Part shown: positions 29,566 to 43,167 of the stretch, in pieces
Layout of the letters: every line of letters starts with the position of its first letter
How positions within the stretch are numbered: position 1 is the first letter of the stretch
NCBI GenBank assembly: GCA_023159155.1
Contig: JAJNNX010000014.1
Coordinates: 806,001-870,000, forward strand
Reading direction: 5' to 3'
Origin: Ustulina deusta
Lineage: Eukaryota; Ascomycota; Sordariomycetes; Xylariales; Xylariaceae
DNA length: 64,000 nt
The notes under the pieces: model-generated
Seen by the model: the letters and a program-made list of their open reading frames with translations, nothing else
Databases searched by the model: none
Told to the model about the DNA's origin: nothing
Program-made: the position numbers and the translations under genes

Positions 29566-31664
29566 ATGTTAAGCCATCGCAACTCGTCAGATCCCTGCTA
29601 CTGTCAACCCTGGCACACAACCTGCGAGCCTTCAGCATGCTCGCAAGCAAAGTTTGCTTCTGGAGAAACAGTGCCGCCTGCTTCTCTCAAAGATTTTCGC
29701 AGGAGCGGCAAGGAGGGCTGTCCAACGTGTGCTATCATTACTAGCGCTCTTGACATCCCAAACATTAGAAAAATATGGCAACAGTCTATCGAATCTGCTT
29801 TCCTAGCTCAACGTAGTGGATTAATTACTAAGATGCGCAATGACGAAGAAGAGATACGAATAATACTTATTGTCGTCGACCACGGACACGGGCGCCGAGT
29901 CTTGCGAACATGGGCATCTGATGGCTCAGAAGATTGGAGGCATTTTAACTTCTGGCGCGAGGGACACTCTAGTAAGAGCCACAAAACCAGAGCTACGAAT
30001 TGTTGTCATTAAACTCGACTCATAACAGACCAGCGAGATGACGGCTGTAGGGCTTTTCCTGCGCTTATATATCATCCTGTAGAGCGCACAGATTCAGCAC
30101 GCACCATAGAACACTTGAAAAACTGGAGTAGAACTTGCGTCGAGAATCATACATGTTGCTCAAGGGATGATCCAATTCTCCCGGCACGTGTTGTCAAGGT
30201 CACGGTGAGATCGCCAATGCCAATGTTACATGAAGATATCATATCAGACTAATAGATCTTAAACAGGAGGGCCGCGTATGGGTGTTCGATACTCAAGGCA
30301 GACGGGGTCGATATACAACCCTTAGTCATAGATGGGGTATTAACGAGACATTCACACTAACGAGAGTAAACATGAACATCATGACTGACAGTATTCCTTG
30401 GGACTCAATCCCAAAGATATATCAAGAATCTATAGAGGTAACGCGGCTCCTCGGCATCGAGTACATATGGATCGACACCCTCTGTATCGTCCAAGATGAT
30501 GCAGAAGACTGGAAGAGAGAGGCTGGGAAAATGAAATCCGTATATGGCAACTCGTATTTAAATATATCTGCCACTCAAGCCGTAGACTCCCACGGGGGGT
30601 TGTTCACATCGAGCAACCTAGGCACGGAATACCCTGCCCAGATAGTACCCCGAGATCCCTCGATACAGATCCGACCCCAACCCCACCTAACCCATCGACA
30701 CTTCGGCAGCAACTACACTAACCTTCCCACCGATCCCCCCCTCATGCGGCGCGGCTGGGTTTTACAAGAGCGCATTCTCTCACCACGGGTAGTGCACTAC
30801 GACGCGGATGAGATAAAGTGGGAATGCCAGGATACGACCGACTGCCAGTGCGGTGGTATGGTGGTGATAGCGAATTTCAAGCGGGACTACTACGGAAGCT
30901 TGAAGCCCGACGGAGGCCCCCCACTGCCGTACCAGTGGATGCGGATCAGTGAGAGGTACTCCGCTCTCAAGTTCACATACGACAGTGACCGGTTAGTTGC
31001 GCTGTCCGGCCTCGCCGAGCAAGGCCTCCAATCCGGCAAGGGGGGGAAATACCTCGCCGGGCTTTGGGAGCGCAGTCTCGCGCACCAGTTATGCTGGAAT
31101 ATCTTCAATACGCACAGACGGCCTGACGTCTCCCTCGCGCCGAGCTGGTCGTGGCTTTCTGTTTTTGGGACCGTAGGGTACCCGAATCGCATGGACTTCA
31201 CTTCGCGGTGCTCGAATATCGATGTCAAGATTACGGAAGCGAGTTGCCTGAGTGCAGAAGGAGCCATCCCCACCCCGAGTACCAGTCCTATTGTGGGATT
31301 CATACGGCTCAAGGGGCGAGGGCTAGAAATGCAGGCGGAACTCGCGGACCCTGGCACCACGTCGCGGCCGCCTGTTTACTGCTTGCAAAGAGAGAGTAGC
31401 GATGGGAAGGGGCTCAAAATCTGGATTCGAGCGGACTATGTAATGACTCGACAAGACGCCAGCGCCATCACTGAGGTATTTTTGTTGTTTTGGGGTCGTA
31501 TGTGGCCGAACCAGAACGCATTCCTTGTTCTCAAATCGGTCTCAACTGAGAGCCACAAGTTCGAACGACTTGGCATAATGTGGCTTCCGCAGGCAAGTGG
31601 AGCAGAGGACTTGGGACGGATACTGGCACATTGCAAAATGGAGGATGATATCGTTATAGTCTAG
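29566..31664 (+). CDS. HET-domain protein
   Basis: Three exons, 29566-29971, 30029-30204 and 30267-31664, with introns of 57 and 62 nt (donors gtaaga and gtgaga, acceptors aacag and aaacag, branch gactaat in the second), give 659 residues. The N-terminus (1-190) carries cysteines of the kind seen before HET domains (CYC, GCPTC, CVENHTCC). The HET domain starts at about residue 210 with TLSHRWG, then IEYIWIDTLCIVQDD, then YLNISAT...GGLF, and later RRGWVLQERILSPRVVHY. HET domains act in heterokaryon (vegetative) incompatibility and are multiplied in filamentous ascomycetes; which partner or allele this one senses cannot be told. The start is the first ATG before GC-rich coding sequence; an in-frame opening further upstream begins only with TTG. 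All key motifs are intact. Confidence 0.9.
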
Positions 31665-35556: not shown

Positions 35557-38500
35557 TTACGCCATGGCATACGAGAACTTGGTGCCCTCCTTGGTCATTG
35601 CCGCGGACATGACCGAGAGTTGACTTTGGAGCTTATCACTATCCTCATCATCCGACGCGCCCCGCGCAGAACTAATCAAGTAGTCGCTATGAGTGACGAC
35701 GAGCTGGAAGTCCGTCCGCGCCATGAGTTGCAAACACCACCGCACGACGGCTGCCTGGCCGGCTCCATCCAGGCTGTCAAATGCCTCATCGATGAGTATG
35801 TAGCGCGCGCGATGCCTGCTATGGGCTTGCAAGATCTGCACGAGAGCGAAGAAGACGGCCAGGTCGATGCGTTTGCGTTCACCGCCGCTGCGCTTCGCAT
35901 AAGACAGTGTCTTGGTCACACCTAACGTCTGGTCGAGGACACCGCTGCTTTGTGGGCTTTTGGGATCCTGGCCGTCTTCGGGGTCGGTGGCGATTATCGA
36001 TCGTAACATGCCCTTTGTGAGTTCACGAGCATGACGAGTGTTTTCGTACAGGACGAGCAATATATTCGAGGCTACAGCGTTGAGCTCCTGCAGACTCTTC
36101 TCGAACATGTAACCGCGGAAGGTCGAGGCTGTGGCTGATTTCGTGCGTCGTCGTGACAACGACTCGTCCCAGAACAGGAACAGCTCCCGCGTAGACATCA
36201 GCGACTCCATCTCCGCTTTTGTAGAAGCGTGACTGGAGCGTTGCTCCTCAAGCGTCGAGGTTTCTTCCTTCATCAATTTTTGATATATTGCGACTTCCCG
36301 TTCTTTTTCGGCCAGCTTGTTTAGAACGGCGGCCCGCCTTCGTGCCCCCTCCCTGATGTTGTTCATTTCCCGCTGGTGTTTAGCCTGCAGGTCATGCAGA
36401 ACACCCTGCTCCTTCAATAATCCCGACAGGTGATTGAGCGAAAAGGAGAGTTGTTGCCTCGCCTCCTGCAAGTTGATGTTCGAGACATTGTTCGGTAGCG
36501 AGCGCACGGTTTGTTCATTGAGCCCTCTGTCCAATACCGCCTTGGTGTCACCCCTCTTTTTGATTGGCTTGATGATCTTCGATTCTCCCTTGGTGAATTT
36601 CGTTCCAATCCTCTCCACTATACTCTCAATTGCGTCTACATATTGCTGGTGCTGCCTAGAAACAGAGGACGCAAACTGTTCTTGGAGGCTGTTGAGATAA
36701 TTTGAGAGTCGTTCCAATGACATTAACCCAATTCGGATGAAATGCAGCGCCATTCGGTTCACAGCGCTCTCTGAACTGAGAAAACCTGTAGCGTTCAGGG
36801 CATGTAATCGCAGCCATGATATGGTTTGAGCAAGATGTTGAAGTGTTTTTTCGAACAAGTGAATGTGCTTCATCGTTGCTGGATCGGGCTGTCGTGGGAT
36901 GAGTCCCAGCAGCTCGTCTCGGAAGGCCTGATATTGACTCTCGGTTCCGTGAATACCTTGATCTGATGCCGACGGCTTTGGGGGAACAACTTCACAAGCC
37001 TCGGCATTCTTTAGGACAGATTGGGTTTGATTCACTGCATGTTGACTTTCCCTGATCTTGGACTTGAGATCTTCCAACCTTGTACTTACTGTTTTTAGGT
37101 CTTCCTCGACTGCGTGATGGGCTCGGTGGCCTTTGAGATCGTAATCGCCCGTTTGGCCTTCGCCAGACCCTGTCTGCATCAAGCGGACTGCTTCTCTCGC
37201 TTCTTCTTCTTCTATGCGCAGGCGTCGCAGCTCCCTTTCCCTGTTGGCAATGCGATCTTGAATGAGGGACACAGTCTGTTCGATTGTACTGATTCTGCTG
37301 CGAAGGGCGGCGAGATCGTCGTCGATTTCACGCATCGTTATTCGGGATAAATCAGCCGATTTATCTAGCGTGGATAGCCCGAGTGTTGATTCGATCAACT
37401 CATGACGCTGGGTGGGCGTTGAGCTTAGAAAGCTAGCAGCGCTCTCGTGCCCCAAAACCACCATTTTGATAAACTCGTCATAGTCAATACCCAAAAGATC
37501 GTCCAGTGCGGCTTGGCTGGTACGAGCCTCGCCATGCTCGAATTGTGGCTGGTCTATGCCATGAAGCGAAACTATCACACGATTTCCGTGGATCTTGTGC
37601 TTCCGAAATCGAGTGATTGTGTACCCATTTGAAAAGGATAGAGTGACCATGCAATCCTTGCCAGTGATGTCATTAACAACATCCCCGACTGACAGCCCTT
37701 TTCGGATACATCGCCCGAACTGACACCAGACGATAGCTTCAATGAGTGTGCTTTTCCCTGAGCCGTTGTCCCCAACAACGAAAGTCAAGCCACGCCCCAG
37801 GTCCCCGTCAAAATCAATAGTGCATTCGCCTTGGATGCCGAGAAAGTTTGAAATTACAATCGAGCGTGGTCTTGCCACGAAGACCTGTTTGCTAGGAGTC
37901 TGCGAATCGTCCGGAGTGGCGATGGAATAGGATGGGTCTAACAGTGCCTTGTAAGCCGCATCGTCACCAAAGGAAGTTGTAGACTCGGAGGCCATTATCA
38001 GCCTTTGGCCCAATTCAATCGTTTTCTTCTCGTGCATGGATTCAACCGCCAAAGACCGAACGTAATCAGGCACATATTCCACCAGGTCAATTTTGCTAGA
38101 TGGTATGTCATCGGGCTGTGATGGCGCTCCTGACTCATCAACAGTCGATCCGGATGTTTCCCCAAGCAAACCACCTGATTCGACAGATCTAAGAGCAATA
38201 TCCCGATCGCTTGCTGGGATGGAAGCGCCCAAGCCGTGGTATGCGGATGAATTCGAACCATCCCCCCACAGTGGTCTTGCTTGTGGTTCACGCACACTCT
38301 GGGCACCAAGCGACAACAACTTGTCCCGTGCAGTCCAGTGCTGAAACCGTGTGAGCCTCCCAAGCATCATGACGTGTTTGTCTTGCACAGTCGAAGCGTC
38401 GACATTATCATCGAGGACCTCCAAGCCCTGAACAGTGATATAGCCTACAGCATGAGGGTTGACGACCAGCTCGTGCTCTAATGTCGCGGGGTCTAGCAGG

Positions 38501-39340
38501 ACAACACCGCGATCTTCATCGCAGAGGTCGGCCCAAGTCAACTGCAAAGGAGCACCCAAGTAGGCGACGCTACCCTGCAGGCGATTCTCACCCCCAGCCG
38601 CCGAGGCATGTTCGTTTGATTGAAGAATGACTTGATGACTGTGAAAGTGGCCGGTGAAAGTTCTACATGCGTGAGACAAAAGTCAGCGATGAGCAGCAGC
38701 GTCGGAACGCAGGAATTGGCACTAGCCTAGCAAGCGTCCTGAAATGATCGGGGCCAGTAAGCCCGCGGTACCGGACGGAATGCCCCATGTCGCTGCCATC
38801 GTCGCGGACAACGTGACGCTGCGTCACGGCCCGGTTGAGGGCCAGATGGGCAAACGCGACGGTGCGGGCGGCCGCCTCTGGGTCGAGCTTGGCCACGGCG
38901 GCCGTCAGCTCGGTTTGGTCTTCGCGGAAGGGCAAAACCAGCACGTCTCTGCCATCCCAGCTGTGGCTGCCGACGTCGTCGTAGAGCGAGACGAAGGGCT
39001 GCAAGCGCGGCATCTTGAGCGCCTCGAGGGCACTGGTGCTGTAGTCGCGGCGGTAGGCGAGGTCATGGTTCCCGAGGATCACGTCGACGTGCGGCACGCA
39101 GCCGCTCAGGTCGGCGAGGAAGCGGTACGCGGCCGAGAGCACCGCCGTCGGCTGCATCGAGCGCGCCGTCAGCACGTCGCCGCACACGACCACACGGCTC
39201 AGGCCAGGCGTCTGTCGCGCCACCGACACAATCCATTCCGCCGTCCGTCTTGTGCGTTCGAGGTCGTGCAGTCGGAAGTGGATGTCGCTGAGCAGTAGCC
39301 ATCGTGGGTGTGGTAGCAGTGGCATGGCTACTGGGTGCAT
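35557..39340 (-). CDS. Fused Mre11/SbcD-like metallophosphoesterase and Rad50/SbcC-like SMC ATPase
   Basis: Two exons, 39340-38727 and 38662-35557, give 1239 residues (1234 if Met6 is used). Residues 1-215 are a calcineurin-like phosphoesterase with all metal motifs: D19-x-H21, D55 (CGD), GNHD at 90-93, H165 (FAH), and GHFH at 209-212, the last formed across the splice. Residues about 230-310 resemble the SbcD capping region. An SMC-type ATPase follows: Walker A GDNGSGKST at 502-510, a coiled coil at about 640-760 and 935-1060, signature SGGERKRIDLA at 1130-1140, Walker B ILIDEAFDSLD at 1160-1170, and H-loop THSD at 1195-1198. By family, this predicts an ATP-controlled DNA end nuclease in one polypeptide. 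No CxxC zinc hook is visible, and the Q-loop position reads LGHES. The intron is best read as GC-AG (ag^gctagt; branch ctgac; 64 nt), since the nearby GT donor breaks the frame. Substrate and cellular role are inference. Confidence 0.88.
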
Positions 39341-39801: not shown

Positions 39802-42318
39802 CTACTTTCCCTTCAGAACAAACGTATCTCCAGTCCATCCAAAGGCCCTGTTCAGCCTCCTGCCGTATCTCCTTGCCGTCGTAAACGGGAATTTTCCGCG
39901 AGGATGCGGCTCGTGGAATTGGATTCTGCTCTGGTCGCCCTCGAGCCTCTCGAACTGCCAGACGGAGCCGTACATCTTCTCGGCCATGAAAAGCCCCGGG
40001 GAAGTCATCGCATGCAAGAACTCGTTCCAGGATACCTCGCCGGGCGAGGAGGTCACGGCGGGGTTGAAAAACAGGGTGCGGAAAACTTTGAACGAGCGGG
40101 CATCTACGGCAACATGAACTGGCACCGCGGGCTCCTCGCGCGATTCATCGTTTTGGATGACAGCAGGCAGGCTGTCGGCCGGTTGAACCGAAGCGTGTGT
40201 CTTCGTTTTCGTCTTGGTTGTTGAGGTTATTGTTGAGGTTTTATCTCCCGTCAATTCGCCGATGTAGATTGTAGAAAGCGGTTTGTATAGGTCGACCAGA
40301 TCGGGATCCAAAACGGCTTCTCTACCCGAATTGGTGGCAGTCGTTGCAGGCTCAACCCACTCCGGTGTACGTCGCATTACGCGGCGATGAGTCGGCGCTG
40401 CCGATTGCCCGCATCTTGTGTACACAACACGGTCTACGGCGGCCCAAAACTCATCAAGGTTCTGTTCGGCTCGTCGCAGTGCTTCTACGTTCTGTTTGGT
40501 CCGCCTCTTCTCCACCGGGTAGCTGAATCTCTTATCGGACGGGGTACCGAGTCTAACTACCTGGCCGAGGTTCCTTTCGTTGAGAGCTGACATTACCGCA
40601 CCCCAAGGTTTAGTCCGTTCACCAAATTCCTTCTCGATATCTCCCAGCCGCTCAGCTAAGGCGTTCTCAAACCGCCGAGCCCATGGCAAGTAAAGGTTAA
40701 GCTGCGCGATGCACTGTGAGACGATAGCCAGGTCGCCAACCACGCTAGCAATGCGTGCCGATAATAGATCTTGAGCACGAGGTTCTGTCTCGAGCAATTT
40801 CCCCAGCTCATCCACTACCAGCGGGAGGCCAATGAAAAAAAGATCCCGGCCATTTTCCCACAGGAGACGGAGAAGGTAGAGGAGTTGTTCCTCGATGGGG
40901 TTCATTTTCACACCAGGCTTTGACATCACAAGGATCTCGGTAGTAGTCGAGTTTGGGGGCGGTTGGCGAACAAAGTATGAACGCCAGGGGGGAGAAGCAA
41001 CGACGCATTCCCGGAGTTGATTCAGCGGGCCTTTCGCTGTTTGGTATAGGTAGTGCCGAAATTTAAGGATGGTGTTCATGAATTCTTCCGGTAAGTCCTC
41101 GGTCGCTGAAATTGTGTCTTTGTGTTTGTCATGAAGCAGCCGCAATATCTGAGCTTGTTGATGCAGCTCCGTGAAGGCTCCAAGCTGCACGTAAGCCTCA
41201 AAAGCAATTGTGCCACATACACGAGCCCACAACGGTTTTCGATCGATGACCTTCAGCGCAGGATGACTCGCACCAAGCGTGTCCTTCAGTAATTCTTGTC
41301 TGTGTTCTTTGACCTCGATAAGTTGTTCCACAAAATACGCAGGATCTTCCCTCAATGCCCATTGATGGTCTTCAGCGGCAACTACTCTGCTACCGAGGAT
41401 TGACTCAACACGCGTCAGATCTAGCTTACTAGGCAGTCTATATGGGGCCTCAGCGGCTATGACCGCCAATGAATCGAAGCCAGTAGATTCTTTCTCCGTC
41501 TTAAGACGTGGCTCCGGTTGAACCGGGAAGGTAGGCCCGGTAAGATCCTCGGCTGGGATTTCGGCAAGGATTTGGGAACAGCTATCAACTAAAAATTGCA
41601 GAAGTTTCTCCTGCGCTTCGAGAACCAGTAGCCCTTCGCCTGGAAGGTATTGCGTACGCGATACCATCCAGTCGAAGGCATCGGGGTGGTCATCCCATGA
41701 TAACAGCTTACCGTATTCGGCGGCATCCCGGGCGCCATGCAAGACCATGGTATGACCATTCAGAAACACCGCGGTTAGATTCTTCGACACTAGTCCCAAG
41801 TGCATGGATTCAAAGTCAGCGGCGGCAAAACTAGTCGGTGGATTGCGTCCTCGCGCGTTCAGCAATAAAAGCAAGGTCTTGGGTTTGAGGAGGTCATCCT
41901 GATTAATGTGCGGCCATGTGTAGTGACTCTTGAACAGATCTCCTGATACTGCTGCTCCTTGCACCCTGTTGGTCCGACGGAACGCATCGAAATCAGGACG
42001 ATGAGATGCTGGCATGCCCGGCCAGGTGTCCAACAAGACCTTCTGCCTCTGCTGTCGCGTCTTCTTGGACCAACGCTTCTGAATCGTCAACTCGTGGCGA
42101 GATAAGATGGCGCGCAGAGTCTCGTAACTAGCGAAAATATTCCGTGACCTCATGCGAGCCTCGTTACGAACTTCTGTTGGAGTTGCCATGTGCACTGATG
42201 GGTCCATCTGCCTAACAAAAGCTTCGGGGTCCAATGAACCCCAGTCTGCTGGGTCATCGTCAACGCCCTCGCCCGTGGCGGCGAGCATATCCAATAATTC
42301 CTGATTTCTCCAAGTCAT
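39802..42318 (-). CDS. Conserved large fungal protein of unknown function
   Basis: One uninterrupted frame of 838 residues starts at ATG 42318 (MTWRNQELLDMLAATGEG). The layout recalls a widespread but uncharacterised fungal family: an N-terminal section with KKTRQQRQKVLLDTWPGMP, then a core LLLLLNARGRNPPTSFAAAD with FLNGHTMVLHG, SWDDHPDAFDWM and PGEGLLVLEAQEKLLQFLVD, and a C-terminal end with VSWNEFLHAM, SVWQFE, FHEPHPRGKFPF and ARRYGRRLNRAFGW. I recognise the pattern from memory of fungal genomes but know no biochemical function. No signal peptide or membrane helix is seen, so a cytosolic or nuclear protein is likely. It lies 461 bp upstream of, and co-directional with, the phosphoesterase-ATPase gene; any functional link is unproven. 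Confidence 0.85.
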   Translation of the reverse strand: MTWRNQELLDMLAATGEGVDDDPADWGSLDPEAFVRQMDPSVHMATPTEVRNEARMRSRNIFASYETLRAILSRHELTIQKRWSKKTRQQRQKVLLDTWPGMPASHRPDFDAFRRTNRVQGAAVSGDLFKSHYTWPHINQDDLLKPKTLLLLLNARGRNPPTSFAAADFESMHLGLVSKNLTAVFLNGHTMVLHGARDAAEYGKLLSWDDHPDAFDWMVSRTQYLPGEGLLVLEAQEKLLQFLVDSCSQILAEIPAEDLTGPTFPVQPEPRLKTEKESTGFDSLAVIAAEAPYRLPSKLDLTRVESILGSRVVAAEDHQWALREDPAYFVEQLIEVKEHRQELLKDTLGASHPALKVIDRKPLWARVCGTIAFEAYVQLGAFTELHQQAQILRLLHDKHKDTISATEDLPEEFMNTILKFRHYLYQTAKGPLNQLRECVVASPPWRSYFVRQPPPNSTTTEILVMSKPGVKMNPIEEQLLYLLRLLWENGRDLFFIGLPLVVDELGKLLETEPRAQDLLSARIASVVGDLAIVSQCIAQLNLYLPWARRFENALAERLGDIEKEFGERTKPWGAVMSALNERNLGQVVRLGTPSDKRFSYPVEKRRTKQNVEALRRAEQNLDEFWAAVDRVVYTRCGQSAAPTHRRVMRRTPEWVEPATTATNSGREAVLDPDLVDLYKPLSTIYIGELTGDKTSTITSTTKTKTKTHASVQPADSLPAVIQNDESREEPAVPVHVAVDARSFKVFRTLFFNPAVTSSPGEVSWNEFLHAMTSPGLFMAEKMYGSVWQFERLEGDQSRIQFHEPHPRGKFPFTTARRYGRRLNRAFGWTGDTFVLKGK

Positions 42319-43167
42319 GTTCTACATGCGAGAGGTCAGCGCACAAAGCTGCTCAATGGTGAAAGCCATCTAAATCACCCCATGCAGCTTACCTAATGTT
42401 AGAAGCCTGGTAGCTTAAGATCATTCAGGGTGGGGTGTACTCCGAGTCAGATTTGAGCGGGCGAACTGTCATAGTAAAATAGTGCGAACGGGCAAATGGG
42501 TTGGGGGAGACATCGACCTCCCTGCACCGTGAGGGGTAGCCCGGAGTCGGCCCTTACAGTGGCTCAAAAAAAGTCCCGTCCGCATTTTTCGGACCGAAAT
42601 ATCTTCACACAAAGTGTAATGTCTGGCCTAATTCATAAGTAAATTCATAAGTAAAGGATAAATAAAGGTAATTTTCTAAAGTATAACCTCTTTTTTTAAT
42701 ATCATGTAATTTTTTCAAATTATTTGCTTTTAAATTTGCGGAAAGGTACAAGGGACAGTTCCTATTTCTTACCCCTCACGGTGGTTCCCATGTCAATTAC
42801 TCCGTCCTTCTCACAACTTCGAACAATACAACTTTCTATGGTGAAGGGTTTTGAACTTGAACAGAAAAGGGACGGGACTTGTTTCGAGTGACTGTAGGTA
42901 CGATGCAAGGGACAGTGTCTATAATACCCCTCACAGTAGATGTCACGTAACTGAGTCTTCATTCACATCATCCTTGATACAACCAATTGCTCAACAATAG
43001 CAGAGATTACCCCTTTCGCTCGTCTAGATATATGCCACTCCGATGCGGCACTCCTCAAGAGCACCAGTATTATCCCCCCTTTAATAACCATAATTGAGAT
43101 AAACATGCCCTCAGCAGAGGAAAAAACAATCCATGAGGCGGCTCTGAGTAGGTTATTAGCTTCTGAG
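42319..43167. other. Intergenic region containing a MITE-like element
   Basis: Apart from the element at 42526-42937 nothing is recognised. An AT-rich patch (about 42,620-42,740) lies inside the element. Confidence 0.5.
42526..42937. mobile_element. MITE-like element with terminal inverted repeats
   Basis: The left end accgtgaggggta (42526-42538) is mirrored by tacccctcacagt at the right end (42925-42937). The inverted similarity continues inward for about 80 bp: acagtggctcaaaaaaagtc on the left against acagtcactcgaaacaagtc read from the right. A further copy of the right terminus (about 38 bp, ending 42782) lies inside. There is no coding capacity. The bases ta follow the right end and ca precedes the left, so a TA target duplication, as in Tc1/pogo relatives, is possible but not certain. 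Confidence 0.65.

Follow-up and report, generated by a model that had tools for sequence, protein, structure and literature searches.

The 64,000-nucleotide stretch of Ustulina deusta (Xylariales) DNA analyzed here, referred to as the window, carries on its minus strand a gene with two exons, 39340-38727 and 38662-35557, which join without a frameshift into an open frame of 1239 residues. The predicted product is one polypeptide with an Mre11/SbcD-type nuclease at its N terminus and a Rad50/SbcC-type ATPase at its C terminus. Exon 1 (38727-39340, minus strand) encodes residues 1-204, ends two bases into the Arg205 codon and includes the nuclease motifs D19xH21, GD55, GN91H92D and H165; read without splicing, it reaches a stop after 225 codons. 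Exon 2 (35557-38662, minus strand), which sits inside a 1041-codon open frame, supplies the remaining nuclease with GHFH at 209-212, the capping domain, a helical linker, the Rad50-type ATPase and the stop codon. Along it follow, on the same strand, a conserved stretch between nuclease and ATPase delineated by alignment (37981-38091, residues 396-432), the ATPase N-lobe (37357-37881, residues 466-640, with Walker A 502-510 at 37773-37747), the coiled-coil arms (36127-37356, about residues 641-1050), which have no CxxC zinc hook, and the ATPase C-lobe (35674-36126, residues 1051-1201), containing the signature from S1130, Walker B at 1159-1164, a D-loop and the H-loop histidine H1196. The metal ligands, Walker A and B, signature and H-loop are thus all present. 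The nuclease and ATPase motifs lie where the preliminary description of this DNA had placed them, save that the H-loop histidine had been numbered 1195, while its proposal that GHFH is built across the splice did not hold: exon 2 encodes the whole motif, the intron interrupts the codon of Arg205, and it is the nuclease domain that spans the splice.

The predicted intron (38663-38726, minus strand) comprises 64 bases with a GC donor and a TAG acceptor and is supported by homologues. The junction 38727/38662 proposed earlier keeps its coordinates and fits the spacing in homologues; its donor is GC, not GT. The best protein match to the window protein is the public U. deusta model P0002 (99%, 1219 amino acids), which begins at 39325, Met6 of the 1239-residue version and possibly the true start of the gene, and lacks 15 residues just before RTFTGHFH; a 109-base GT-AG intron (38663-38771, GT donor at 38771) yields exactly this sequence. 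The segment preceding GHFH is kept in 152 of the 164 homologues with a complete span, and the FAHLA-to-TGHFH spacing is 45 with the 64-base splice, a value common to 59 rows, and 30 in P0002 alone; some Xylaria and Nemania gene models also deviate beside GHFH. Slightly against the 64-base splice, the phage profile phrog_100 gives it 71.9 bits versus 79.1 for the shorter P0002. On these sequence comparisons, we accept the predicted 64-base GC-AG splice over that of the public model, and P0002 probably reflects a mispredicted gene model, so that part of the nuclease is missing from the public record.

That the two frames form one gene rather than neighbours, as first claimed, is borne out by the in-frame splice and by homologues that are one polypeptide in many species, and because the family has this form, the readings as two adjacent genes or as a chance arrangement were set aside. 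Bacterial or phage contamination was rejected, given the intron, the 1.05 Mb contig and the fungal-type neighbours. Searches with the window protein returned 215 hits at expect values (E) ≤ 0.001 and those with an Apiospora member (P0096) 229, with the best 120 listed in each case; the method depends on shared 5-residue words, and 95 and 109 hits fall outside the listed matches. An N-terminal profile of 561 residues gave 45 hits, all of them listed, its length limit shutting out most full fusions. Among the matches listed, every organism name is that of a Sordariomycete apart from one label that we doubt, ‘Lasiodiplodia mahajangana’ (P0036), attached to a 5 kb contig and a protein 66% identical to that of the window; given the scope of the searches, distant members outside Sordariomycetes may exist. 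We take the orders among the listed matches to be Xylariales, Amphisphaeriales, Hypocreales, Sordariales, Diaporthales, Magnaporthales and Ophiostomatales, the placements of Ustulina, Diaporthales, Magnaporthales and Apiosporaceae having been looked up. The protein searches therefore contradict the idea of a gene peculiar to one fungus; the predicted fusion, present in one copy in its own genome, is confirmed as a real family conserved across several Sordariomycete orders.

In an alignment of 20 family members H21, D55, N91, H92, H165, H210 and H212 are invariant and D19 is nearly so, suggesting that the fusion nuclease is probably active. Recognition of this domain depends on the profile: the window protein does not reach E 0.1 with Pfam Metallophos, the profile earlier proposed for checking it, which matches three of the four family members scanned, P0002 being the exception, and has 28 matches in the genome, none on the window contig; phrog_100 recognizes the nuclease at E 8e-20. 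The Mre11_DNA_bind domain (PF04152) is absent from all four members scanned and from the window protein. A fold model of the homologue P0044 has helices at 378-388 and 399-415. Mre11 contacts the root of the Rad50 coil through a helix-loop-helix, according to the consulted sections of PMC3175470, and we infer from alignment and model that residues 396-432 occupy the place, and possibly the function, of that element. Walker A is followed by the motif WCQFGRC (residues 517-523, 37728-37708); 143 of 150 family members have this cysteine pair, small variants allowed, and none of 22 comparators does.

The most distinctive property of the ATPase half is what its arms lack. Among 190 proteins including that of the window, from which 40 fragments or motif misses were excluded, CxxC between Walker A and the signature was found in 0 of the 150 scorable members (0 of 116 in an earlier count), versus all 23 comparators, namely 20 phage, plasmid or viral-contig ATPases, Escherichia coli SbcC, the host Rad50 and the fusion of Tenacibaculum phage PTm1. 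This predicted hookless state across the fungal family, set against a hook in every comparator, is new. The Rad50 zinc hook is described, in the portion of PMC6969161 available, as a stable dimerization module comparable to the hinge of SMC proteins and replaceable by one. The fungal proteins presumably dimerize otherwise, the obvious candidates being dimerization of the nuclease together with the covalent link.

The genome also holds canonical mre11 and rad50, as the preliminary description expected of a fungus, on contigs C102 and C32. The C102 protein matches a solved fungal Mre11 at E 9e-190, and both genome matches to PF04152 fall there, at C102:649556-650160; the 1359-codon frame on C32 matches Chaetomium thermophilum Rad50 at E 0 and has the hook CELC. 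These host proteins (L053 and L054) share their superfamilies with the fusion and differ from it by their separate loci, the PF04152 domain and the hook. The fusion is additional to canonical MRN, so that the earlier suggestion of a second machine of the Mre11-Rad50 (MR) type stands.

Profile comparisons point to phages as the closest relatives of the family. The window protein and three further members all match the SbcC-like phrog_77 at E 4e-53 to 7e-58 and the SbcD-like phrog_100 at E 8e-20 to 1e-27, whereas NCBIfam sbcC matches four family members at 5e-24 to 6e-21 and NCBIfam sbcD, at E ≤ 0.01, only one of those four (0.005); the phage gp46/gp47 profiles thus score far better than the cellular ones. 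In tblastn, 1569 phage records matched, none with one place covering 80% of the query, and 0 of 894 plasmid records had such a place; megablast of the fusion gene against plasmids gave zero matches, and a pattern scan of genome contigs found 20 fitting stretches with no relatives among them. Nuclease and ATPase genes are separate, with the nuclease upstream, in nine named phage records and a plasmid record, and separate in the ten viral contigs used, where the nuclease comes first in seven and the ATPase in three (L019, L020 and L040). Overlaps of about 20 bases between the stop-to-stop frames in viral contigs L021, L022 and L024 could be a ready template for fusion. PF13476 detects phage PTm1 and misses pT24. 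In a viral fold library, Listeria phage LMTA-57, Tupanvirus, other giant viruses and Tenacibaculum phages supply the best matches, all of them long proteins, with alignments over 1,200 columns and template-modelling scores of 0.2-0.4; the giant-virus matches would, from length and name, be fusions. In LMTA-57 (KJ591605.1, 59521-62550) a single protein is annotated at a position occupied by two genes in most related Listeria phages, over 3030 bases versus 3031 in most relatives; an error or a recent change may account for this, and the case was left aside as evidence for an ancient fusion.

Three deep trees were computed from nine fungal rows and a non-fungal set of 10 of 22 viral-contig loci, nine named phages, one plasmid, E. 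coli and the host, so that the canonical rows are one bacterial and one eukaryotic; PTm1 was added in one tree, and the ATPase tree omits vir_L028 and vir_L036. In all three the fungal rows form one clade (100/100) on a long stem (1.86, 1.76 and 1.67), without a firm sister. Since no sister is firm and a grouping with cellular rows stands unrejected, a viral origin of the fusion appears the likelier reading and not a fact. An origin by duplication and fusion of the fungus's own mre11 and rad50 would agree with the order Mre11 then Rad50, which fits any MR source, and is allowed by the deep tree (approximately unbiased (AU) test, p 0.209), but PF04152 occurs only at the canonical locus and in none of the fusions scanned, CxxC is missing where the host Rad50 has CELC, and phage profiles outscore cellular ones by far; we hold this origin to be highly improbable.

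The history within Sordariomycetes was followed in a tree of 85 sequences, made by a quick method and hand-picked from 120 listed matches as named and reasonably complete. A single branch separates each of Xylariales, Diaporthales, Magnaporthales, Apiospora and Clonostachys from all other rows, Diaporthales adjoin Apiospora, and nine Sordariales rows group with eight of nine Fusarium rows, among Hypocreales. In a second tree of 35 rows, five of them from the Apiospora search (LG+G4; bootstrap not settled), AU tests reject a single clade for Hypocreales (p 2.45e-6), Sordariales (p 5.5e-4) and Sordariomycetidae (p 4.3e-83). The conflict between gene tree and fungal orders is new and points to transfer between orders or to old paralogy with losses. 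It bears on the notion that the gene descends vertically from an ancient eukaryotic MR fusion, like those of moss, diatom and slime moulds, and that most fungi have lost it. Eukaryotic examples do exist, as the available text of PMC3175470 records, and Xylariales, Diaporthales, Magnaporthales and Apiospora are each set apart by one branch of the larger tree; the rejected clades, and the listed matches with zero names outside Sordariomycetes bar the one doubtful label, speak against vertical inheritance, which we regard as unlikely.

The same conflict, with Sordariales grouped among Fusarium rows, would follow if the gene moved horizontally between Sordariomycetes, possibly as a genome-conflict nuclease directed at foreign or hairpin DNA and not at repair, an explanation that we consider possible without expecting it to be correct. 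Old duplication with loss would produce an equal conflict, and the surroundings show little sign of mobility. Ten neighbouring frames were scanned with Pfam: five matched, to a HET (heterokaryon incompatibility) domain (30234-31664, plus strand), a lectin-like domain (below cut-off), aldehyde dehydrogenase, CBM_X2 and SRR1, and none carries a transposon domain. The 29 genome matches to DUF3435, which we take to be the Starship captain, include none on the window contig (C30), and Starship cargo was rejected at this locus. As to a defence role, the best PADLOC matches among those listed, LmuB (8e-20) and mad3 (4e-19), are limited, like the others listed, to the ATPase part, and membership of a PADLOC family was rejected. 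Upstream of the fusion by about 460 bases lies an 839-codon frame (39805-42321, minus strand) with no Pfam match; Rfam gave zero matches in the window.

Positions 1-22000 of the window are extremely AT-rich (7-18% GC per 2 kb), with indices resembling those of repeat-induced point mutation (RIP), TpA/ApT being 1.29 and (CpA+TpG)/(ApC+GpT) 0.34; the corresponding values in the fusion gene are 0.48 and 1.29, so that it does not share the signature of this block. A decaying or unexpressed gene might be suspected from the GC donor and from short models in some species, e.g. 415 amino acids in Fusarium graminearum PH-1. The uninterrupted 1239-codon frame, its intact motifs, its conservation across orders and the missing RIP signature so near a degraded block make this very improbable.

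Taken together, the data make it probable, to the degree that sequence can, that the gene encodes a single-chain MR nuclease of the same kind as phage gp46/gp47, which Sordariomycetes retain beside canonical MRN; the absent hook, the phage-type affinity and the conflict with the species tree had been missed in the earlier reading. Several observations weigh against this assignment. One aligned member, P0055, carries Asn in place of the first metal Asp, and the fold model, which is of P0044 and not of the window protein, is moderate (predicted local distance difference 69, predicted template-modelling score 0.48) and weak in parts of the nuclease. Another close cysteine pair lies beyond the N-lobe in 17 of the 150 members: in 11 it is a Cx3C, always at the same site at the coil's foot, and in six it lies farther out; none is CxxC, and such pairs could bind metal. 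Finally, neither a clade of fungal and cellular rows (p 0.209) nor one of fungal rows and the phage fusion PTm1 (p 0.319) is rejected by the AU test.

If the gene does encode such a single-chain nuclease, two fusion chains would dimerize, most likely through their nuclease domains, and ATP would close the Rad50-type heads onto a DNA end or hairpin as the presumed substrate. The helical linker would couple head movement to the metal-dependent nuclease, whose activity is predicted, and ATP hydrolysis would reopen the clamp. Fusion would set a 1:1 ratio and bind the nuclease to the heads. Because the hook is lost, the enzyme would process ends or hairpins locally and would not serve as a long-range DNA tether, with the loss of tethering and the location in the cell both putative. 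More speculatively, and rather doubtfully, a phage-derived hookless MR nuclease may have been captured once by Sordariomycetes and later passed between orders, acting against incoming or palindromic DNA separately from repair; were this so, the family would constitute an MR machine without long-range tethering. The hookless fused family offers a natural test of which MR functions require the hook, tractable hosts such as Trichoderma and Podospora could reveal the role of an extra MR machine beside MRN, and fungi join the scattered eukaryotes with virus-type MR fusions.

As a class, MR fusions are not new. In the consulted sections, Yoshida et al. 2011 (PMC3175470) report thirteen fusions, Mimivirus R555 and twelve others, including those of moss, diatom, slime moulds, green algae and plasmids but none from a fungus, and propose a viral origin with recurrent fusion. 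No described fungal example was found among the papers listed by the literature searches, which mostly exclude subscription papers and preprints; within that scope the novelty first suggested stands for fungi and not for fusions elsewhere, known since 2011, and the fungal hookless variant is new. Compared by description in the same sections, the known fusions resemble the fungal family in having the nuclease first and the ATPase in one chain of similar size and, in most cellular hosts, canonical separate genes beside the fusion, as in U. deusta. The PTm1 fusion (1318 amino acids), outside the list in those sections, has CPTC where the fungal family has no hook. Bacterial SbcD/SbcC differ in being two genes, with a 1048-residue SbcC bearing a CPLC hook. 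The T4-type gp47/gp46 system (PHROG 100 and 77) likewise has two genes versus the fungal one, with the ATPase first in 3 of 10 viral contigs, and CxxC in 20 of 20 phage, plasmid or viral-contig ATPases versus 0 of 150 fungal ones. Nevertheless, it provides the best PHROG matches for both fungal halves and the same order of nuclease before ATPase in the nine named phage and the plasmid records, with about 20-32% identity between fungal and phage or viral proteins over the matched parts.
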